Of a stretch of DNA of 10,302 nt, positions 1 to 10,302 are shown piece after piece (positions within the stretch are counted from its first letter, which is position 1; each line of letters starts with the position of its first letter). Origin of the DNA: Lachnospiraceae bacterium (GTDB lineage: Bacteria > Bacillota_A > Clostridia > Lachnospirales > Lachnospiraceae); the NCBI GenBank assembly GCA_017435025.1, contig JAFSFU010000141.1, positions 1 through 10,302 of the forward strand. Direction: 5' to 3'. The notes under the pieces were generated by a model that saw only the letters and a list, made by a program, of their open reading frames with translations, was not told where the DNA came from and made no database searches. Made by a program: the position numbers and the translations under genes.

Positions 1-547
1 CTGTGTTCAGAAAATCTGTACTCTTGAGCCCTGTTCGCAAATTGCGATCCATGGTAATACGCACATTCCCCGGTTCATACAAAAAGGCCTCGCGATCATA
101 GCAGACAATGGTTGTCGGGCGCAGCTGCTGTCCCTGCATCTTACTGTATAGCTCCACCAAAAGCGGTTCGTCGCTCTTCAGCAGAAAATTTAAATCTCCG
201 CGCAGAATCTGCTCCACCTGTGTTTTTGTTAACCGGGCGCTTCGCTTTGCACAAAGGCCATTGACCTTCATCTTTTTTTCCAGTCGTATAAACGACAGAT
301 CCGAATTATAGTAGCGAATGCGAAATTTCTCTCTCTGATTGACTCCATCCATTTTCTGGCGCAATGCTTTGTCATAAGGCGTATCAAAATACAGACTGCT
401 CACACGGTAAATACCGTGTGAGTCAGCATGTGCATCATGGGGGAACAATTTGCGAAGTCTCGAGGAAACCACCTGATCATCCATGCGATTGATCATATGT
501 TTCCACTCATGTCTAAAACGAATTGCGTTCTTTTCCTTAGTCATCAT
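1..547 (-). CDS. VTC-domain polyphosphate polymerase-like protein (partial, 3' end beyond left edge)
   Basis: The frame read leftward from 547 stays open to the window edge and gives about 182 residues matching the N-terminal half of the VTC (polyphosphate polymerase) domain. Visible motifs in order are FRHEWKHMIN near the N-terminus, SLYFDTPYDKA, REKFRIRYYN, LEKKMKVNGLCAKRS and, near the edge, YDREAFLYEPGNVRITMDRN. The many Lys/Arg residues on these strands are what lines the nucleotide/polyphosphate tunnel in characterised VTC proteins. The start is ATG 547 (or the next codon, ATG 544): FRHEWKHMIN is the usual first strand, so little is missing. The start lies inside the last codons of the upstream lipoprotein gene, an 11-nt overlap with only a weak GGTGA ribosome site, so translation is probably coupled and transcription should come from the promoter at 1408-1440. 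Family knowledge: bacterial VTC proteins often neighbour DUF4956 or CotH genes, which could lie beyond the edge. The substrate in vivo is inferred, not shown. Confidence 0.85.
   Translation of the reverse strand, partial: MMTKEKNAIRFRHEWKHMINRMDDQVVSSRLRKLFPHDAHADSHGIYRVSSLYFDTPYDKALRQKMDGVNQREKFRIRYYNSDLSFIRLEKKMKVNGLCAKRSARLTKTQVEQILRGDLNFLLKSDEPLLVELYSKMQGQQLRPTTIVCYDREAFLYEPGNVRITMDRNLRTGLKSTDFLNT
399..422. repeat. Near-perfect palindrome inside the VTC gene
   Basis: CTCACACGGTA and its exact reverse complement TACCGTGTGAG are separated by only two bases (AA). The site lies about 125-150 nt into the VTC coding sequence, where it encodes part of the segment leading into the SLYFDTP strand. 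It may be coincidental with codon choice, or a protein-binding or RNA-hairpin site. No function is assigned. Confidence 0.6.
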
Positions 548-1358
548 ACTCAGAGTCACCATCATCGTAATCAGATGCTCCGTCATCGTAATCGGATGCC
601 CCATCATCATAATCGGTCACTCCATCATTGTTTGGACCGTAGTCTGTGTCATCGTAATCCGTCACTCCGTCGTTGTTCGGGCCGTAGTCTGTGTCATCGT
701 AGTCCGTCACTCCGTCGTTGTTCGGGCCGTAGTCTGTGTCATCGTAATCCGTCACTCCGTCGTTGTTCGGGCCGTAGTCTGTATCATCGTAATCCGTCAC
801 TCCATCGTTGTTCGGGCCATAGTCTGTGTCATCGTAATCGGTAATACCGTATTCGCTTTCACCTTCCACGCTAACTGGGCTTGTCCACTTGTTTTCCTTT
901 ACGTTCTCACGAATTTCCTTTACCACTTCATCCAGAAATTCCTCGCTCGGAAGCTTGGATCCACGCTCGATCTCAATTACAATCTGACGTCCCTCTCCTT
1001 CAATCTCCTCTGTAAAATATCCGGCATCACCAATTTCTGTTACCAATTCTCCTACCACTTCGCGACAGCTCTTGCCTTCGAAATCTTTATAGCTCTCAAG
1101 AATCTTTTTTGCATCTTCATTTCTGGAGGAAACCTCTGTAACAAGACCTTCCTCATCATAGGTAATTGCAATTTCCGGATTAACCTTCAGACAAAGAATA
1201 CCTCCACCATTCAATCCATTCTTTTCCGCTTCTGTCGCAGCAGCAACTTTATCCGTCGCTCCTTTTGTTACATTGTTTGCGCATCCTGTCAAGCCGGATA
1301 CACAAAGGGAAGATACCGCTAATACGGCTAACATTGTTCTTACATAATTCTTTTTCAT
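537..1358 (-). CDS. Lipoprotein with RsgI-like ectodomain and acidic Asp-Tyr repeat tail
   Basis: The 273-residue product begins with a lipoprotein signal peptide: basic MKKNYVR, a hydrophobic core, and lipobox LTGC with the lipidated Cys at 26. It is therefore predicted to be anchored on the outer face of the membrane. Residues about 52-120 match the periplasmic middle domain of RsgI anti-sigma factors, with the pattern LKVNPEIAITYDEEG, a later N-x-D-A and a Gly-Tyr-Phe, closely parallel to the neighbouring RsgI. The Asn-Pro pair (60-61) is at the position where RsgI proteins are known to self-cleave. No cytoplasmic anti-sigma domain is present, so it cannot itself bind SigI. Residues 171-245 are five 15-residue repeats (GVTDYDDTDYGPNND type) and 246-273 four 7-residue units (GASDYDD type), ending DSEYDD. 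An AAGGAGA ribosome site precedes ATG 1358, and a sigma-I-like promoter lies upstream. Its role is unknown: a co-sensor, a decoy or a surface polymer-binding protein are all possible. Confidence 0.85.
   Translation of the reverse strand: MKKNYVRTMLAVLAVSSLCVSGLTGCANNVTKGATDKVAAATEAEKNGLNGGGILCLKVNPEIAITYDEEGLVTEVSSRNEDAKKILESYKDFEGKSCREVVGELVTEIGDAGYFTEEIEGEGRQIVIEIERGSKLPSEEFLDEVVKEIRENVKENKWTSPVSVEGESEYGITDYDDTDYGPNNDGVTDYDDTDYGPNNDGVTDYDDTDYGPNNDGVTDYDDTDYGPNNDGVTDYDDTDYGPNNDGVTDYDDGASDYDDGASDYDDGDSEYDD
540..623 (-). repeat. Four 21-bp tandem units at the 3' end of the lipoprotein gene
   Basis: Four in-frame 7-residue units (GVTDYDD, GASDYDD, GASDYDD, GDSEYDD) follow directly on the 45-bp array. 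The 15-residue unit looks like one of these 7-residue units plus TDYGPNND, so the longer repeat probably grew from the shorter one. Confidence 0.85.
624..848 (-). repeat. Five 45-bp tandem repeats in the lipoprotein gene
   Basis: Five consecutive in-frame 45-bp units encode residues 171-245 of the lipoprotein, each reading G-V/I-T-D-Y-D-D-T-D-Y-G-P-N-N-D. Copies differ only at a few mostly silent positions (for example TAC/TAT in Tyr codons), so they are recent or homogenised and could change number by slippage or recombination without breaking the frame. Confidence 0.9.
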
Positions 1359-1407
1359 AATTCTTTCTCCTTATTCTAGATGTATTATCTTTTGTTCCTT
1401 ATACTAT

Positions 1408-1440
1408 AGAATACGAGGACTCATTTCAAAAAACGGGGTC
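1408..1440 (-). promoter_or_regulatory. Sigma-I-type promoter for the lipoprotein and VTC genes
   Basis: On the minus strand GACCCCG (1434-1440) and CGTATTCT (1408-1415) are separated by exactly 18 nt. The same two boxes with the same spacing occur upstream of sigI. The ACCCC/CG-A pattern is the type reported for sigma-I promoters in Bacillus and Clostridium. The -35 starts 17 nt after the rsgI stop codon, and no terminator is visible between, so read-through from sigI-rsgI is also likely. The predicted transcript start gives a leader of roughly 40 nt. Confidence 0.8.
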
Positions 1441-1457
1441 ACATCAAATATTTTTAT

Positions 1458-2573
1458 TTAATCATCAAAATCGCTGTCATCTATATCCTCGTAGTCACGA
1501 TCGAACTCTTCCTCATAGTCGCTGGCCAACTCTTCCTCGTAATCACTGACTGATTCTTCCTCGTAATCACTGACTGATTCTTCCTCATAATCACTGACTG
1601 ATTCTTCCTCGTAATCACTGGCTGATTCTTCCCCGTAATCACTGGCTGGTTCTTCCCCGTAATCACTGGCTGATTCTTCCTCATACCAACTGTCGGCTTC
1701 TTCATAATCGCTATCCGATTCTTCATAGTCACTGGCCAACTCTTCCTCATAATCACTGGCTGACTCTTCCTCGTAATCACTGTACGACTCATTATACGGT
1801 GAATCTTCAAAATCATCCAACGGTATCACGATGGCTTCCACGGTTTCTCCATAGTCCGATTCATGATAAACCGCTGTCTCATGCACTTCAGACTCGCCTG
1901 GTAAGGAAATTTCCACTTGCTCATCCACTGGTTCCTCACGCATCCCTACCTCAATTGTTACAGATATTTTTTCAGTCAAGTATTCATCCAGATGTATTTT
2001 CAGTTCATTACCTTTGTCTGTAATCCACTGTTCATCTTCCGCTTCCAAATCTAAAAGAATCTGTCCTCCTTCATGCAAAAATCCCTGCTCAATTGCTCGA
2101 TCTACCAATTCATCCATAACCGGATCTAACTGTTTCTTCTTATAGGAATATCCCTCAACTAACTGTTCGCCATCATCATTTAGCCCATCAATATCAACAA
2201 CAACATTCTTTCGATTCACATCGATACGCACCTCTGGATTGATCGTCATATATACTGAACCGAATGTCTGCTGATTCAAGTGGAAGACAGATGTGACAGC
2301 CACTACCAAACATGCTGCCGCTGCTGCCAATCCGGCCATAATCTGTTTTGCTCTTCTTCCGGCAAAAACAATAATCTTACTTTCTTCTTTTTTTGAACAC
2401 TCTGGTTCCCAAGGCACAATCTCCAGAATCTCTGATTCAGGTTCTATCATTTCAACGATTTTCGTAACGGTCTGTCCAACTTCATACCGCAAATTGGCTG
2501 CTTTCAAAAATCTTCCATCTTCTGACAGTACGACCGCATAACTGGTATGACATTCCATAACTATATATTTCAA
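1458..2573 (-). CDS. rsgI: RsgI-type anti-sigma-I factor with acidic Tyr-repeat ectodomain
   Basis: This 371-residue single-pass membrane protein should hold SigI inactive on the cytoplasmic side and release it when the outside part is triggered. Residues 1-50 are the RsgI N-terminal anti-sigma domain (YIVMECHTSYAVVLSEDGRF). Residues about 77-98 form the membrane helix (IMAGLAAAAACLVVAVTSVF). Residues about 104-200 are the RsgI extracellular middle domain with Asn112-Pro113 in MTINPEVRIDVN, the known self-cleavage position in this family. Residues about 261-371 are a low-complexity tail of 8-residue units (SDYEEESA/SDYEEESV type) ending DSDFDD. Other RsgI proteins often carry carbohydrate-binding or protease modules there; none is present. 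The start is TTG 2573, overlapping the sigI stop as TTGA, with AGGGGG 9 nt upstream. The next ATG (2558) would cut into the first beta strand. It is co-transcribed and probably co-translated with sigI. Confidence 0.9.
   Translation of the reverse strand: MKYIVMECHTSYAVVLSEDGRFLKAANLRYEVGQTVTKIVEMIEPESEILEIVPWEPECSKKEESKIIVFAGRRAKQIMAGLAAAAACLVVAVTSVFHLNQQTFGSVYMTINPEVRIDVNRKNVVVDIDGLNDDGEQLVEGYSYKKKQLDPVMDELVDRAIEQGFLHEGGQILLDLEAEDEQWITDKGNELKIHLDEYLTEKISVTIEVGMREEPVDEQVEISLPGESEVHETAVYHESDYGETVEAIVIPLDDFEDSPYNESYSDYEEESASDYEEELASDYEESDSDYEEADSWYEEESASDYGEEPASDYGEESASDYEEESVSDYEEESVSDYEEESVSDYEEELASDYEEEFDRDYEDIDDSDFDD
1461..1781 (-). repeat. 24-bp tandem repeats encoding the RsgI acidic tail
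   Basis: About twelve in-frame, imperfect 24-bp units encode S-D-Y-E/G-E-E-S/L/P-A/V octapeptides (residues about 265-360), with two 7-residue units (SDYEESD, SDYEEAD) in the middle. Three central copies (SDYEEESV) are almost identical in DNA. The tail is then closed by a degenerate DRDYEDIDDSDFDD end. Confidence 0.88.
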
Positions 2574-3298
2574 ATCCGGGCGCCCCCTTTCTCTTTGAAT
2601 ACACGTTTCAAATGTCCTCGGATAATCTCATATCCATTTGTCTGTATCAGCAGCATAGCCAGCACATACTTTCGATGACGTTCCAATGTCTTTCTTTCCA
2701 CACCGGTTCCCTCTGTCAATTGTGCTAACGGCAATTTTTTTGTTTTCAGCAATTCATCCAAAATATATGGGTGTTCAATCGCATAATTGACCACTCGTCT
2801 GCACGCATCCAGCGTTCTTTCCTGTTTGGGGGAATGTTCTGCCACATCCGTCAAACAAACCCCAAAACCGGCCATAACTGCACTCAATTCTTCAATCTCC
2901 TGTCTTGTGGCATTTCGATTTGTTAACTCCTCAGCATGATCGTAATCGTCTGCCAAACGATCCTGTAATGTCAAACCATCCTCGTCATGTTCTTCATTCA
3001 GTGAGACATTCCCTTCATGTCTGGATTCCTTCCTTCGATAATCGATCAAACGACTTCGCATGATCATAGATGCATAGGCTAGAAATGCCCCACGCTCTTT
3101 TGTGTAGCCGCGAATCGCCTCATGAAATGCAATCATTCCTATACTAAATTCATCATCATAATCGGTGCATCCTCTCCCGATTATCTTTGACACTTCTGCT
3201 TTGATGAAGGGAATATAAGCTCTGATCAGATCATCTGCTTTCTGCATATCATGTTTTGCATCATACACTTGTTTTACAATCTGATGCTCTGTCTTCAT
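2570..3298 (-). CDS. sigI: RNA polymerase sigma factor SigI
   Basis: The 242-residue protein directs RNA polymerase to sigma-I promoters. Residues about 20-95 are sigma region 2, with DDLIRAYIPFIKAEVSKI, the core-binding helix DDEFSIGMIAFHEAIRGY and the -10-recognition/melting segment FLAYASMIMRSRLIDYRR. The acidic linker (100-125) is followed by the SigI-specific C-terminal domain, including YILDELLKTKKLPLAQLTEG and GVERKTLERHRKY, the helix-turn-helix that reads the -35 element. Length and domain order are normal for SigI. ATG 3298 is preceded by AAAGGAGGG at 3304-3312. The stop overlaps the rsgI start, the usual SigI/RsgI arrangement. The gene lies behind a promoter of the type SigI itself should recognise, implying positive autoregulation once RsgI releases it. 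In related bacteria SigI responds to heat or cell-wall stress, or to extracellular polysaccharide; the trigger here is unknown. Confidence 0.93.
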   Translation of the reverse strand: MKTEHQIVKQVYDAKHDMQKADDLIRAYIPFIKAEVSKIIGRGCTDYDDEFSIGMIAFHEAIRGYTKERGAFLAYASMIMRSRLIDYRRKESRHEGNVSLNEEHDEDGLTLQDRLADDYDHAEELTNRNATRQEIEELSAVMAGFGVCLTDVAEHSPKQERTLDACRRVVNYAIEHPYILDELLKTKKLPLAQLTEGTGVERKTLERHRKYVLAMLLIQTNGYEIIRGHLKRVFKEKGGARI

Positions 3299-3318
3299 AA
3301 TTTCCCTCCTTTATATAA

Positions 3319-3351
3319 AGAATACGCAGGCCTCTTCCTGAAATCGGGGTC
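3319..3351 (-). promoter_or_regulatory. Sigma-I-type autoregulatory promoter of sigI-rsgI
   Basis: On the minus strand GACCCCG (3345-3351), an 18-nt spacer and CGTATTCT (3319-3326) match the promoter at 1408-1440 base for base in both boxes. The expected start point falls at about 3312, so the ribosome site (3304-3312) sits almost at the RNA 5' end and the leader is only about 14 nt. I see no convincing second, housekeeping promoter in the AT-rich stretch 3352-3466. Confidence 0.8.
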
Positions 3352-3466
3352 TGCGCTGATATTTTTAAAAAAGTTCACGATCATATTCTAAAACACCAAA
3401 GTAAAATCCATTCTTTTGGCATGTAAATTCTCTGTAAAATAAAGGTAAAACTTTTTCCTCGTACAC

Positions 3467-3516
3467 AAAAAAAGAAACATGAACCAATGCAGGTTTATCT
3501 GCACTGTTCATGTTTC
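3467..3516 (-). terminator. Rho-independent terminator of the add / choline-binding protein unit
   Basis: An 11-bp outer stem (GAAACATGAAC at 3474-3484 pairing with GTTCATGTTTC at 3506-3516) encloses an inner TGCAG/CTGCA stem. Seven T residues follow on the minus strand (3467-3473). It lies 36 nt past the stop codon of the choline-binding protein gene and insulates it from sigI. Confidence 0.9.
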
Positions 3517-3552
3517 CAGTCAATAATTCCTATTTATTGTGTCAAATCTATC

Positions 3553-4326
3553 TTAATAATAGGTATCCAAAGAGTTCAAAATTGCTTCCATTCTCGCCTT
3601 ATCCCACTCACTCGCATATGCAAGACCGATATGCATGTAAATCGGAGTTCCTTCATATTCAAAACGACGAATGTAGAAATCGTCATGCATCTCACCCTTC
3701 TGGATACCGATCTTCATATACTCGCGTCCGTCATTCAGCAGAACTTTTCCGTAATCCTGTGTTGCGTATCCGCTTTCCCGGAATGCTTTGATACTTTCTG
3801 TCCGATACTGCTCTTCTGTCAGTTTAGCATCATCACTTCCATCGTATGCCACACGAACACTCGGCATCAGTGCCGCATTTCCATCAATCTGCGCATAAAA
3901 ATCATAAGAATTTTCCAGCAGATTTAAGACAGCATCATCGTAGAAATAGCTGCCTGCCGGAATGTACATTGCATAATCAGAAAGTGGATTGGAGAGAACC
4001 CAGTCATCCAGCATTGCTCCGTCTGAACCAAAGCGATAATGATATCCTTCAATGATCAAATCGGTATTCGCCGCCATTCCACCGCTCTCTACAAGATAAT
4101 AATACTTTCCATTGTCCTGGATCCAGCCGGTTTCCATATAGCCCGCTTCATCAAACCAATACCAGACATTGTCGATATGAGCCCACCCGTCCTTTGCGTA
4201 AGATCCATCGTCATTCTGATACCACCAGCCTACGTGATCCAGCTTCCATTCACCTGCATAGCTTGTCATTGCAAGTCCTGCTGTCATAGCCATTGCCATA
4301 CCTAATACTGCCAGTTTCTTTTTCAT
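3553..4326 (-). CDS. Secreted choline-binding-repeat (cell-wall-binding) protein
   Basis: The 257-residue product has a Sec signal peptide (MKKKLAVLGM, hydrophobic core, AMTSYA with likely cleavage after Ala24). Residues about 25-110 are aromatic-glycine choline-binding type repeats: GWWYQNDDGSYAKDGW, VWYWFDEAGYMETGW, KYYYLVESGGMAANT and a degenerate YHYRFGSDGAMLDDW. Such repeats bind choline or other teichoic/cell-wall decorations or glucans. The remaining C-terminal domain of about 145 residues is mixed alpha/beta in appearance, ending in a WDKARMEAILNSLDTYY helix, and I do not recognise it. Start ATG 4326 is chosen over the in-frame ATG 4347 because AAGGAGGAG (4331-4339) sits just before it and it begins the signal peptide. 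It follows add by 29 nt with no terminator, so the two are probably co-transcribed; no functional link to adenosine is evident. Confidence 0.85.
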   Translation of the reverse strand: MKKKLAVLGMAMAMTAGLAMTSYAGEWKLDHVGWWYQNDDGSYAKDGWAHIDNVWYWFDEAGYMETGWIQDNGKYYYLVESGGMAANTDLIIEGYHYRFGSDGAMLDDWVLSNPLSDYAMYIPAGSYFYDDAVLNLLENSYDFYAQIDGNAALMPSVRVAYDGSDDAKLTEEQYRTESIKAFRESGYATQDYGKVLLNDGREYMKIGIQKGEMHDDFYIRRFEYEGTPIYMHIGLAYASEWDKARMEAILNSLDTYY

Positions 4327-4355
4327 GTTGCTCCTCCTTGATGTCATTTTTAATT

Positions 4356-5354
4356 TTATAAAAATCCCATCTTCCTGCGAAGCGCATCCTTTGTCTCATT
4401 GCTGCAGAATGCCGCATCGATGGAATTCTCTGCACATTTCTTTAACTGCTCCATGGATACACCAAGTGCACGCATCTGCGCATACTCGTTATCCAGATCT
4501 GTCTTTACAAAAGTCATATTGTCGGTGTTTAGGGTTACTTTCACGCCTGCTGCCAGGAGATCACGAACCGGGTGAGCCGCGTAATTGCATTTCATGGAAG
4601 AAACATTGCCGCTGAGGCAAACCTCCAACGGAATCTGTTTCTCTACCACTTCCCGCAGCCATTCCGTGTTCTGCACACAGTTGATGCCATGACCAATTCT
4701 CCAGGCACCCATGGCAATCGCCATCGGAACATGGGATCCATCTCCCATTTCACCGGCATGGATCGTATACGGAATTTCCAGTTCTTTTGCCATCTCGAAT
4801 AACGGTGCATAGAGATTGAAATCACCATTATTTTCATAACCTGCCAGGTCCAGTGCAACCACACCCTGTCCGAGGAACTCTTTGGTCACGCGGATCGTCT
4901 CCACATTGGCGTCCCAGTTTACATGAGCATCCTCGCCTTTGTGCATCATACAGTTGATCAGACCAACTTCCACTTCCGGGAAATCTTTTTTCGCCTGCTC
5001 CATGCCGGAAAGAACGGCCTCCACAACCTCTTTCTGGCTCAGGCCCTCCAACATATGCTGCTGCGGTGCAAAGCGAATCTCTGCATAAAGCATCTCCTTT
5101 TCTGCCAGTGTTTCGATCAGATGATAGATGCTGGCTGCCAGATCTTCTCTTGTCTGCATGACCGCAATCGGGAAATCGAAGCGTTTCATTCGCTCCTCCC
5201 GGTTCTTAAACTCGGTTCGATGCATGATATCATAATACTCTTCGAATGTACAATCCGGAGCAACCACTCCACGTTTTTTCGCGGTTTCCCACGCCCATGT
5301 CAGATTCAAAGAACCATCTAAATGCAGATGCAAGTCTACTTTTGCGTATTTCAT
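4356..5354 (-). CDS. add: Adenosine deaminase
   Basis: The 332-residue cytoplasmic zinc enzyme converts adenosine (and deoxyadenosine) to inosine in purine salvage. The metal and catalytic residues of the family are in place: His9 and His11 in DLHLHLDGS, His199 and Glu202 in HAGEMGDG, His222 in RIGHG and zinc-ligand Asp278 in LNTDNMTF. The canonical second Asp of the TDD motif, which contacts the purine ring, is Asn279 here; I recall this TDN variant in several Gram-positive Add proteins, so it is probably a subclass trait, but substrate range could differ. Length is typical. GGAG lies 8 nt before ATG 5354. It is the first gene of an add/choline-binding-protein unit driven by the leftward promoter in the divergent region. 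An adenine deaminase or 6-aminodeoxyfutalosine deaminase role is less likely but not excluded. Confidence 0.88.
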   Translation of the reverse strand: MKYAKVDLHLHLDGSLNLTWAWETAKKRGVVAPDCTFEEYYDIMHRTEFKNREERMKRFDFPIAVMQTREDLAASIYHLIETLAEKEMLYAEIRFAPQQHMLEGLSQKEVVEAVLSGMEQAKKDFPEVEVGLINCMMHKGEDAHVNWDANVETIRVTKEFLGQGVVALDLAGYENNGDFNLYAPLFEMAKELEIPYTIHAGEMGDGSHVPMAIAMGAWRIGHGINCVQNTEWLREVVEKQIPLEVCLSGNVSSMKCNYAAHPVRDLLAAGVKVTLNTDNMTFVKTDLDNEYAQMRALGVSMEQLKKCAENSIDAAFCSNETKDALRRKMGFL

Positions 5355-5403
5355 TTTTCATTCTCCAATCCATATCAATCTATCTATGTTCTTCATTTTA
5401 TTC

Positions 5404-7719: not shown

Positions 7720-8316
7720 TTACTTCCATTCCATCAATATCGCTCGACAAGGCGCTCCATCGGCTCCACCCAGATTCAGCGGCGCCGCGTTGAGCAGATA
7801 CACTCCTTCTGTGACACTTTCCAAGCGGATTCCTTCTAATAAAATCACTCCTGCTCCTAAAAGCACCTGATGCACTTCCATCGGTGCATCTTCCGGTCCA
7901 ACAGTCTGAGATTCATTCCCAATAAGAAGCAGTTTTGCATCCGCAAAAACTTTTGCTGCATCCGCAGAGACCTCCGCATCACCTTTGATCAAAATTCTTT
8001 CAGCGGCACACACATCCGCCTTCGCAGCTTTCTCTAAAATCGTTTCTGCATCCTTCCCGGTTACAACTCCATGATGCTCTGCCACATAAGCCAAACCGAC
8101 AAATGCTTCCAAGTCAACCTCGTCAATGGTCTTTCCATCCCGAATAAAATGAAACGGAGCATCCACGTGGGTACCATTGTGAGCACACATACGAAAAGAT
8201 GTCAGGTTACATACTTCTCCATCTTCAATCGAACTCAATCTTTCATACTCCGGCACCGGATCACCGGGATAAACCTGGCAGCTGAAAATCTCCTGAGAAA
8301 TATCATAAATCTTCAT
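7720..8316 (-). CDS. Cyclase / kynurenine-formamidase-family metal hydrolase
   Basis: The 198-residue protein belongs to the cyclase family (PF04199), which includes kynurenine formamidase KynB and isatin hydrolases, all metal-dependent amidases or ring-openers. The diagnostic metal motif HNGTHVDAPFHF is complete (His46, His50, Asp52, His56), followed by the usual DLEAFVG segment and a late HQVLLGAGVILLEGI. The N-terminal YDISQEI is also standard. Two start codons, ATG 8322 and ATG 8316, are only 6 nt apart. AGAGGG abuts the first but is well spaced from the second, so 8316 is preferred. It begins about 10 nt after the upstream gene's stop and is in the same operon. No tryptophan-degradation partners are visible, so a kynurenine role is not supported. 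Confidence 0.86.
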   Translation of the reverse strand: MKIYDISQEIFSCQVYPGDPVPEYERLSSIEDGEVCNLTSFRMCAHNGTHVDAPFHFIRDGKTIDEVDLEAFVGLAYVAEHHGVVTGKDAETILEKAAKADVCAAERILIKGDAEVSADAAKVFADAKLLLIGNESQTVGPEDAPMEVHQVLLGAGVILLEGIRLESVTEGVYLLNAAPLNLGGADGAPCRAILMEWK

Positions 8317-8326
8317 ACCCATCCCT

Positions 8327-8899
8327 CTATTCCAATGGCATACAGATTACTCGGTCAATTTTGGTTTTTAAAATTTTGCTGGAAACCTCCGGACGCAGTA
8401 CCATCGCCGTATCAGCACCTCTGGATGTTCCTCCTACCGCAACAACCGGTTCGCCGCCAACGATATAACCCGCATCCGCAGCCATTGCACAGATCTCAAC
8501 GCATACCTTTGTACCCTGACCAAACATACGGAGTGTGTGAGCAATAATCTCCACAGGATAAACACCTTTAAATGTATTGGATAAAGAACGCTCTGCTCCG
8601 CTGAGAACGTGAGCTGCCGTGCAGATATTGAAACCTTTTTCGATCAAATAACGGCGAAGCTCCGACGGCATAGGATTGGTGCCCGGTTCCACCTGCCCAT
8701 AAGCATGGGTTACCGCTGTAATCGTAATCCCTTCATGATCGATCGAATCCGCCATCATCTTTGCAGTATTTCCATCGGTTGTTGCTAAAACAATATTCGT
8801 AATATTCAATTGTTTCGCAGCCTCCACTGCAAGTTTCAGTGTATTTTCCGTATTTTCACGCCCCGGTGTTTCAAAGTATACAATCTTATCCTGAATCAT
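8327..8899 (-). CDS. Stand-alone pyruvate kinase C-terminal-like (alpha/beta) domain protein
   Basis: The 190-residue product resembles the pyruvate kinase alpha/beta C-terminal domain (PF02887) without any kinase barrel. It reads YFETPGRENTENTLKLAVEA at the N-terminus, then VLATTDGNTAKMMAD, VTHAYGQVEPG and a conserved-looking VGGTSRGADTAMVLRP near the C-terminus. In true pyruvate kinases this domain binds allosteric effectors; free-standing copies are of unknown function and may bind a small phosphorylated ligand. Start ATG 8899 is chosen because GGAGGTG (8908-8914) is 8 nt away; GTG 8905 would be too close. It is the first gene of the four-gene operon, with a promoter at 8942. Confidence 0.82.
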   Translation of the reverse strand: MIQDKIVYFETPGRENTENTLKLAVEAAKQLNITNIVLATTDGNTAKMMADSIDHEGITITAVTHAYGQVEPGTNPMPSELRRYLIEKGFNICTAAHVLSGAERSLSNTFKGVYPVEIIAHTLRMFGQGTKVCVEICAMAADAGYIVGGEPVVAVGGTSRGADTAMVLRPEVSSKILKTKIDRVICMPLE

Positions 8900-8941
8900 A
8901 GTCACAGCACCTCCACAACTTCTTACTTTTCACATAAACCA

Positions 8942-9019: not shown

Positions 9020-9784
9020 CTATCGTTTTTTGTAAACCACCAATTCCGGATCAGCACCGTTTTCTTTATAAGTGCAAACAAGCAAAAAGTCCATATTCGC
9101 GACAACACCAAAGCATCTCTCTCCGCCAAACTCACATTCTAACTGGTTTCCAAGATAGGTGGTCTCATCGTCCAAAAATTTGACCATTTTTCCGTTCGGC
9201 AATCGATACTCGAGATTGACAAATCTGCCAACAAGTGCATTGAGACTTTCAACTTTTGGCATCCCTTCAATACCCAGCTCATTCAATTCATCCATGATTT
9301 TTTTCTTGAATTCATCGAACTTTTCTTTCCCTGCAAGATCCGTATACCGTTTCCAGTAGTTTAATTTCGGCAGCATGTCTTTCATATATGTCCGAACCTG
9401 CTCTGATGAAAAGGTTTCATTTGCCATATGTACAGCACAGTAATCAATCAGGTCATCCATATTGTTATATGTATATTCACCATCTGCATAGCACCACTTA
9501 CAATATTCTTCGTTAAATACGCCGTCCGTCTCTTTGCTGATGATAGAGTCCTCAAGAGGCATACCACAGCACTGACAGATTAATTGTCTCGGAGACCCAA
9601 GCAGCGTGTTGATTGAAACATCAAAAACTTTTGACAACAATTTCAATGTTTCCGTATTGGGTATTGTGTCTCCATTTTCCCAGCGCGATACTGCCTGACG
9701 GGTAACATGTACTTTCTCTGCCAATTCCTCCTGTGAAAACCCCGCCTTATTTCTCAATTCCTGTATTACATTCTTTGTTTCCAT
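9020..9784 (-). CDS. XRE-family transcriptional regulator with zinc-ribbon domain
   Basis: The 254-residue protein has an XRE/HTH_3 domain at residues 1-60, with the helix-turn-helix FSQEELAEKVHVTRQAVSRW, so it should bind DNA as a repressor or activator. Residues about 68-120 are a putative zinc ribbon (PF12674 type): ICQCCGMPL (Cys70, 72, 73), EEYCKWCYADG (Cys95, 98) and DYCAVHM (Cys116, His119). A region of helices up to about 170 and a beta-rich end (VNLEYRLPNG, FVVYKKR-like end) complete it. This HTH plus zinc-ribbon architecture is frequent in Firmicutes; the signal is not known. The start is ATG 9784, since GGAGGTGAG sits 6 nt upstream; upstream codons to 9838 lie in the promoter. It is monocistronic and might control its neighbours or an unlinked target. 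Confidence 0.88.
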   Translation of the reverse strand: METKNVIQELRNKAGFSQEELAEKVHVTRQAVSRWENGDTIPNTETLKLLSKVFDVSINTLLGSPRQLICQCCGMPLEDSIISKETDGVFNEEYCKWCYADGEYTYNNMDDLIDYCAVHMANETFSSEQVRTYMKDMLPKLNYWKRYTDLAGKEKFDEFKKKIMDELNELGIEGMPKVESLNALVGRFVNLEYRLPNGKMVKFLDDETTYLGNQLECEFGGERCFGVVANMDFLLVCTYKENGADPELVVYKKR

Positions 9785-9805
9785 GAACTGCTCACCTCCA
9801 TAAAC

Positions 9806-9814
9806 AGTATACCA
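9806..9814 (-). promoter_or_regulatory. Extended -10 promoter of the XRE regulator
   Basis: On the minus strand TGGTATACT (TATACT at 9806-9811) forms an extended -10 about 21 nt before the start codon, giving a very short leader. No convincing -35 is visible. Confidence 0.5.
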
Positions 9815-9903
9815 GAAATATGGGGAACGGGAAAGCAACCTGTTGTTGCGGATTGTTTAGATATGATTGATCAGGAAAGCGTGGACAAAGATTAAGTTAT
9901 AAC

Positions 9904-9953: not shown

Positions 9954-10302
9954 TTATAATAATTTAATCACACCCAAGATCAACAGATGAAGGGGATAAA
10001 ACACATAGTAAACCATTTGAAGCTGTTTACTGTGATACCCCTGATTTCCTCGATACAGCCAGATTGGAATCAACGCTAAGAGTGCAAAACTCTGGCGTAA
10101 CAGGAAATAGGTTTGTCTAAACATATGCAGTTCATAGGAAAAACCGCCCAGCATCTCTGTATTGATATACCACAAACAGATTGTCTGTCCTAAATAACTC
10201 CACCACTTCCTCTGCCGGAAGAAATAAAACACAAGGACCGTCATAATGCCTGCGTGGTAAAAGTCGACCATCGTCACAAGCCCAATGATATAGCCTAACA
10301 GC
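9954..10302 (-). CDS. TraX-family integral membrane protein (partial, 5' end beyond right edge)
   Basis: The frame is open to the right edge, so only the C-terminal 115 or so residues are seen. They contain several hydrophobic segments: IIGLVTMVDFYHAGIMTVLV, an AxLIPIWLY-type stretch and a final hydrophobic helix. The ending, in which a short basic-aromatic YHSKQLQMVYY leads into FYPLHLLILGVIKLL, is characteristic of TraX proteins (PF05857), whose founding member acetylates F-pilin. In Clostridia chromosomal homologues act as membrane acyltransferase-like proteins of unknown substrate. The stop codon is at 9954, followed directly by the terminator. No conjugation genes are in view, so a pilin role should not be assumed. 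Confidence 0.82.
   Translation of the reverse strand, partial: LLGYIIGLVTMVDFYHAGIMTVLVFYFFRQRKWWSYLGQTICLWYINTEMLGGFSYELHMFRQTYFLLRQSFALLALIPIWLYRGNQGYHSKQLQMVYYVFYPLHLLILGVIKLL

Follow-up and report, generated by a model that had tools for sequence, protein, structure and literature searches.

A putative phosphate-primed, self-amplifying SigI switch for a single polyphosphate and surface-kinase locus in a Lachnospiraceae bacterium and its relatives

The window discussed here, a 10,302-nucleotide (nt) stretch of a Lachnospiraceae bacterium genome (assembly GCA_017435025.1, contig JAFSFU010000141.1), carries on its minus strand sigI, for a probable sigma factor of the SigI type, rsgI, for its anti-sigma factor, a lipoprotein gene and part of a gene with a VTC (polyphosphate polymerase-like) domain. 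Comparison with relatives, in which the same genes are followed by DUF4956 and CotH, leads us to read this region as a phosphate-primed, self-amplifying SigI switch for one polyphosphate/surface-kinase locus, with a probability of about 70%. A further proposal built on such a phosphate-primed loop is distinctly more doubtful: RsgI might sense, outside the cell, how active CotH is as a kinase (perhaps with polyphosphate supplied by VTC) and tune production of the module to match. The genes and promoters at the center of the argument are as follows.

3319 to 3351, minus strand: SigI-type promoter of sigI, with -35 GACCCCG (3351-3345), a T-tract and -10 CGTATTCT (3326-3319); evidence from shuffles and conservation
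1408 to 1440, minus strand: SigI-type promoter of the lipoprotein-VTC unit, with the same pattern GACCCCG-N18-CGTATTCT; evidence from shuffles and conservation
2570 to 3298, minus strand: sigI, probable SigI-type sigma factor of 242 amino acids (aa); Pfam Sigma70_r2 over cut-off, NCBIfam SigI models best
1458 to 2573, minus strand: rsgI, anti-sigma factor with RsgI_N, a hydrophobic segment, RsgI_M with INPEV and an acidic tail rich in the motif [ST]xY; Pfam RsgI_N and RsgI_M
537 to 1358, minus strand: lipoprotein with RsgI_M (VNPEI), an [ST]xY repeat tail and lipobox cysteine C26; Pfam RsgI_M 59.2 bits (cut-off 25.3)
2 to 544, minus strand: VTC-domain gene, running off the window; Pfam VTC 111.1 bits (cut-off 23)

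Both promoters lie where the first-pass annotation of this DNA had placed them, on the minus strand, with the same 15 of 15 box letters and a spacer of 18 each. The full pattern occurs twice in the window and in none of 200 dinucleotide-preserving shuffles of it. Its -10 box ends 20 nt ahead of the sigI ATG in the first case and, by the coordinates, 49 nt ahead of the lipoprotein ATG in the second. The earlier remark that the spacers differ holds for their letters, which are not identical, but they are not unrelated, as a T-tract is common to the spacers across loci: positions 2-5 are T in 82-100% of 40 sigI spacers and in 75-94% of 53 second-gene spacers. The window's own two spacers start ATTTC and TTTTTT, the tract of the sigI copy holding three T. 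The identification of an ACCCC-like -35 and a CG-A -10 with SigI promoters likewise agrees with passages of PMC4711584, where the Bacillales consensus is ACCCCC--AA-15N-CGAA and the clostridial sigmaI3 boxes are CCCYYAAA and CGWA. Published SigI promoters also have an A-tract behind the -35 box, according to passages of PMC10575876 and PMC6056542; all three features (ACCCC-type -35, A/T-tract, CGWA -10) are present here, the tract being T on the coding strand, not A.

Conservation was followed through 44 related sigI loci in 41 genomes (best identity 69%), making 45 loci with the window, mostly from gut-dwelling bacteria. Because the scan that found them used six peptide patterns taken from the window's SigI, these loci are kin of that SigI rather than a sample of all SigI, and many of their contigs stop before the gene cluster does. 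The box stands upstream of sigI in all 44 relatives and in the window, with 12-15 of 15 letters matching and a spacing of 18 in 40 loci, 19 in four and 17 in one. A second promoter region past rsgI, ahead of the second gene, was found in 38 of 38 readable loci, the window included (those with at least 2150 nt past the sigI start; 7 of the 45, on early-ending contigs, were left out), by a weight matrix built from the sigI-upstream boxes, so that second-gene sites were not in its training set. This second promoter is doubled in 17 of the 38, with the copies 81-140 nt apart. Applied to 435,146 bases, both strands included, the matrix returned 111 rows, four of them outside the two promoter regions; one mononucleotide shuffle gave six rows.

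The reach of the circuit appears to be narrow. A genome-wide search for the boxes, as the first-pass annotation had proposed, was run on the 41 relatives' genomes, as were the array searches described below. The strict pattern ACCCC-N19-CGTAWTCT gave 62 matches in 34 of the 41 genomes, against 5 for the reversed pattern; it misses some loci, since seven genomes had no match despite a sigI locus. Fifty-five of the 62 lie at a sigI locus or its second gene, counting as such an additional sigI copy in G004 and, in G027, a fragment of a second gene (L059). Seven lie elsewhere; five of the six inspected sit inside open reading frames (ORFs), and the seventh, in G026, is uninspected. Two candidate explanations can be set aside. 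Chance origin of the promoter pair is ruled out by the window shuffles, the scan shuffle and the reversed-pattern control, and a broad SigI regulon is rejected as far as the strict pattern shows, with off-locus matches (7/62) near the background of 5 and mostly inside ORFs. Because 55 of 62 strict matches are at the locus and only seven elsewhere, SigI in the relatives would serve essentially one locus, within the reach of that pattern. The first-pass description of the lipoprotein promoter as a first target of SigI undersold it: in relatives it would be nearly the sole one.

It is improbable that both boxes instead serve another sigma factor or a repressor operator, with SigI not the activator. 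The link between box and SigI is one of co-occurrence alone, and the protein falls under the curated cut-offs of the SigI models: its ten best NCBIfam matches are all SigI models, scoring below threshold (NF006178, 186.4 against 306 bits; TIGR02895, 178.6 against 185), and only the general sigma70-ECF model is exceeded (52.8 against 42.9). Against this stand the box letters, spacing and A/T-tract, which resemble published SigI promoters, and the presence of the box ahead of sigI itself in 45 of 45 loci.

RsgI passes the Pfam cut-offs for both RsgI_N (narrowly, 28.5 against 25) and RsgI_M, in a scan whose reading frame was taken from 2594; rsgI itself begins with a TTG at 2573 that overlaps the stop codon of sigI. 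An ATG at 544, overlapping the lipoprotein stop, likewise opens the VTC gene, and because of these overlaps rsgI and VTC are placed for co-transcription with sigI and the lipoprotein gene, respectively. The earlier proposal that SigI activates itself, rsgI, the lipoprotein and the VTC gene thus draws support from comparison (boxes in 45/45 and 38/38 loci, with the gene overlaps), and such activation would follow from the promoter sites. What the first-pass annotation lacked is that the lipoprotein itself carries an RsgI-type domain with an autoproteolysis motif. The AlphaFold model of its residues 1-166 (mean predicted local distance difference test score, pLDDT, 78.7) has a fold that matches the periplasmic domain of RsgI from B. 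subtilis (8t9n, E 1.3e-6); it also matches C. thermocellum RsgI domains, at E above 0.001. The Asn-Pro motif of RsgI self-cleavage, at which cleavage is predicted, reads INPEV in RsgI and VNPEI in the lipoprotein, and is invariant across 30 aligned lipoproteins. A relative of this lipoprotein with a PepSY domain between RsgI_M and tail was also seen (homologues such as P0013, P0038 and P0081; L204, 4528-5514). In G021 a separate Pho-like array accompanies the gene for the PepSY type, and no sigI was seen in the 8 kb whose ORFs were read there.

In the relatives, ORF clustering gives the order sigI-rsgI-lipoprotein-VTC-DUF4956-CotH, which the earlier annotation did not include; family names were assigned by Pfam on the proteins of one locus (L003). 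VTC was found in 25 of the 45 loci, DUF4956 in 22 and CotH in 27. Four loci (L017, L019, L023 and L034) have no VTC-DUF4956-CotH beside the lipoprotein. Three of their genomes, metagenome assemblies that are perhaps incomplete, gave no CotH and no VTC match, and the genome of L023 gave one match to each, away from the sigI locus. Several genomes carry more than one copy of the sigI locus (L007, L093 and L095 in G007; L004 and L203 in G004; L036 and L037 in G034), some with near-identical upstream regions.

The proposed phosphate input comes from an array of TTTAC repeats upstream of the SigI promoter, which the first-pass annotation had missed.

3423 to 3449, minus strand: Pho-box-like array TTTAC-N6-TTTAC-N6-TTTAC (units 3449-3445, 3438-3434 and 3427-3423), 11-bp period, 129-151 nt ahead of the sigI ATG
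3385 to 3390, minus strand: weak candidate -10, TAGAAT, of a putative Pho-dependent housekeeping promoter, from sequence

PHO boxes are defined in a passage of PMC4415409 as 11-nt direct repeats. With three such units, where two or more make a Pho box, the window holds a predicted binding site. TTTAC pairs at exactly 11 bp occur in 33 of 45 sigI loci (shuffle mean 0.365) and triples in 15 of 45 (shuffle mean 0.01). Gemmiger sp. An120 (L038), a culturable commensal, is among the relatives with the array; Traorella massiliensis (L014) is among those that have no exact pair. TAGAAT or TATAAT lies 16-95 nt from the first array unit in 11 of the 33 array loci, the window included, a count that comes without a chance level. 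Among the relatives a like pair precedes 13 of 20 TIGR02136 matches for pstS, 90-171 nt before the farthest possible start; these 20 were chosen from 32 rows, leaving out second pieces and other rows, and some are partial or weak. By a cruder start the pstS count is 10 of 20, and only 7 of 311 control ORFs have the pair, five of the seven being sigI with a longer called start. A search for triples returned 28 rows, 13 at sigI and 15 for 12 other places. Seven of those 12 adjoin phosphate genes, namely Pit (L076, L078), Na/Pi cotransporter (L083, L099, L100), Ppx/GppA (L094) and UgpB-like (L096); another (L075) adjoins a further RsgI_M lipoprotein, and at L080, L087, L088 and L098 no phosphate gene was seen beside the array. 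The four loci that lack VTC-DUF4956-CotH beside the lipoprotein also have no Pho pair (0/4, against 33/41 other loci; Fisher p 0.0033, with kinship uncorrected).

The serious rival at this point is plain SigI autoregulation with no phosphate input, the TTTAC array being a site for another regulator of the OmpR family, above all WalR. The WalR box is TGTWAH-N5-TGTWAH, and it is a serious rival because this box fits the opposite strand of the array, where the consensus TTTACATA-ATTTTACA reads TGTAAA-N5-TGTAAA. There is also a precedent in B. subtilis lytE, which by passages of PMC7299342 is read from a SigI promoter and also from a WalR-requiring SigA promoter. We consider this rival rather unlikely overall, and WalR less likely than PhoB/PhoP at the array: pairs of the same kind precede pstS in 13 of 20 matches in the same genomes, 7 of 12 off-locus triples adjoin phosphate genes, and no cell-wall hydrolase was found among those array neighbours that were scanned, which were only some of them.

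Several observations weigh against the switch as proposed, its phosphate input included. The exact pair is missing in 12 of 45 sigI loci and ahead of 7 of the 20 pstS matches. Of the seven arrays that adjoin phosphate genes, four (L078, L083, L099 and L100) point away from the phosphate gene. The one at L100 aims at a gene for a Mur ligase, 286 nt away, a point in favour of WalR, and the one at L078 at a DUF2325 gene; WalR or chance would account for these orientations just as well. The 41 loci on the other side of the Fisher test include contigs that end before the cluster is visible. The window itself stops inside VTC, so that DUF4956 and CotH are assumed there from the relatives, and one genome (G001) gave no VTC match. 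The outward-facing arrays at L078, L083, L099 and L100 could, as a separate observation, point to repression, to a divergently transcribed unit or to some other regulator.

A second line of evidence concerns the tails of RsgI and the lipoprotein, both encoded by tandem repeats.

1507 to 1782, minus strand: repeat region coding the SDYEEE-type RsgI tail; tandem repeats of period 24, motif counts
541 to 839, minus strand: lipoprotein tail repeat region of DTDYGPNNDGVTDYD type; tandem repeats, with a 45-bp period over 604-839

Serine or threonine stands at -2 of 231 of 279 tyrosines in 33 RsgI tails (shuffle mean 51.9) and of 347 of 359 in 22 lipoprotein tails (shuffle mean 61.3), counts restricted to tails of at least 40 residues in which an NP motif could be read. 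Among the matches listed (120 of 1228 found, the window's included), 119 of the 120 homologues were counted, and [ST]xY occurs in their tails at 2252 of 2472 tyrosines against 390.8 in shuffles; in the folded domain of the same homologues it occurs at 64 of 420. The homologue search favours sequences with the query's own repeat. The rule holds in RsgI and lipoprotein alike across species with differing repeat units. Loci L017, L019, L023 and L034 keep acidic tails with only 3 [ST]xY among 20 tyrosines (last 100 residues of eight proteins).

The shared tails could be cation-binding or wall-spanning linkers rather than kinase substrates, their likeness coming from common descent of RsgI and lipoprotein; for this last step of the scheme alone, we give that alternative a little under an even chance. 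It gains from the RsgI_M domain common to both proteins and from the persistence of acidic tails nearly without the motif in those four loci. It is harder to reconcile with a motif rule that survives differing repeat units between proteins and species, with the near absence of the motif in the four loci that were shown to be without CotH/VTC, and with the report in passages of PMC7821199 that B. subtilis CotH phosphorylates repeats of proteins encoded next to it.

Against a kinase role for the tails count further points. Tandem repeats and kinship inflate the [ST]xY counts, and the link between tail motif and CotH depends on the four negative loci. On the SigI tree these need four changes, of which well-supported branches force only one, and the tree is poorly resolved. 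Exceptions exist in L021 and L027, whose RsgI tails have one [ST]xY each though the genome has CotH, and in L024, with three [ST]xY, a contig that ends early and a genome with only another CotH type. The short flanks of the CotH loci L133-L192, scanned for an acidic [ST]xY-rich frame, gave one beside an operon-type CotH (L170), one low-grade match in the overlapping L134/L157 and none in the remaining loci. Silence at most operon-type CotH loci means little, because the flanks fall short of the lipoprotein.

Taken together, the sites and proteins suggest a four-step course for the phosphate-primed switch. Phosphate limitation, acting through a PhoB/PhoP-type regulator on the 11-bp TTTAC array, would switch on sigI-rsgI from a housekeeping promoter. 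RsgI would keep SigI at the membrane, as is known for the family and as the motifs present suggest, until its Asn-Pro-cleaved extracellular part is pulled off and intramembrane proteolysis frees SigI; passages of PMC12203970 describe how RsgI cleaves itself and then undergoes proteolysis by RseP and ClpXP. SigI, given the promoter sites found, would then transcribe sigI-rsgI again and also drive a lipoprotein-VTC-DUF4956-CotH unit from one or two further promoters. Finally, VTC and DUF4956 would synthesize and transport polyphosphate, and CotH, which belongs to a family of secreted kinases, may modify the [ST]xY repeats common to lipoprotein and RsgI tails, much as in B. subtilis, where CotH phosphorylates Ser-rich repeats in the products of adjacent genes (passages of PMC7821199). 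If CotH does modify the shared repeats, the anti-sigma tail could therefore report on the module under its control.

Other features of the window are set beside the circuit. Between a choline-binding-repeat gene and the sigI unit lies a terminator-like hairpin.

3485 to 3506, minus strand: terminator-like hairpin, 1 in 1300-3600 with a shuffle mean of 1.3, not above chance

That choline-binding-repeat gene (3553-4332), whose product is probably secreted, is directly upstream of the sigI unit. Further along, 8327-8905 encodes a stand-alone protein whose only match is to the pyruvate kinase C-terminal domain PK_C; it adjoins a putative cyclase gene (7720-8322). A protein that combines a helix-turn-helix with a zinc-ribbon domain is encoded at 9020-9838, and a TraX-like one at 9954-10301 is truncated where the window stops. 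Comparison of window positions 1-5400 with plasmids gave no match, and an Rfam scan of the window found no family at gathering scores.

Measured against known systems, the locus shares with the SigI-RsgI pairs of Bacillus subtilis and Clostridium thermocellum a sigma/anti-sigma pair, autoregulation (predicted here), the promoter type and RsgI_N-RsgI_M with the Asn-Pro motif. It differs in a regulon that in the relatives would be one polyphosphate/CotH locus rather than cell-wall or cellulosome genes, in an acidic [ST]xY repeat sensor tail, in a Pho-type array at sigI and in a second RsgI_M protein that is a lipoprotein. The set of CotH kinase, polyphosphate polymerase (PPP) and DUF4956 next to pelDEADAFG, described in passages of PMC7112168, brings together the same three; there it is linked to Pel exopolysaccharide, here it lies beside sigI-rsgI. 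By its gene list, NELoc-2 of Clostridium perfringens CP4 (PMC2879425) is alike, with a sigma factor 'SgiI', a 348-aa wall protein, VTC, a 226-aa membrane protein and CotH, but the part of that source seen gives it as a list without regulation, Pho site or tail motif. In cotB-cotG-cotH of B. subtilis spores (passages of PMC7821199) CotH is again encoded beside repeat-tailed proteins; there the repeats are Ser/Lys/Arg-rich, the proteins are part of the coat and phosphorylation has been demonstrated, whereas here it is a proposal. B. subtilis lytE (passages of PMC7299342) likewise has, before a single gene, both a SigI promoter and a SigA promoter dependent on an OmpR-family regulator; there WalR fills that role and the product is a wall hydrolase, whereas the Pho-type site proposed here is located at sigI itself. 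SigI6 is said in passages of PMC4711584 to control the cellulosomal CotH-dockerin gene cseP. Among the matches listed from open-licence PMC literature, in titles, abstracts and passages, none joins a SigI circuit with phosphate or the CotH-VTC module; the nearest of these matches are the NELoc-2 gene list and cseP.

SigI-RsgI control is itself known, and the phosphate link, one-locus CotH/VTC regulon and tail motif would be a variant of it, judged from sequence comparison. To our knowledge, no function has been established for the CotH-VTC-DUF4956 module of bacteria. If the phosphate-primed switch is real, the module would gain an inducer (low phosphate), a one-locus regulon and candidate kinase substrates, all directly testable, and phosphate-starvation control at sigI would join two known regulatory systems unexpectedly.

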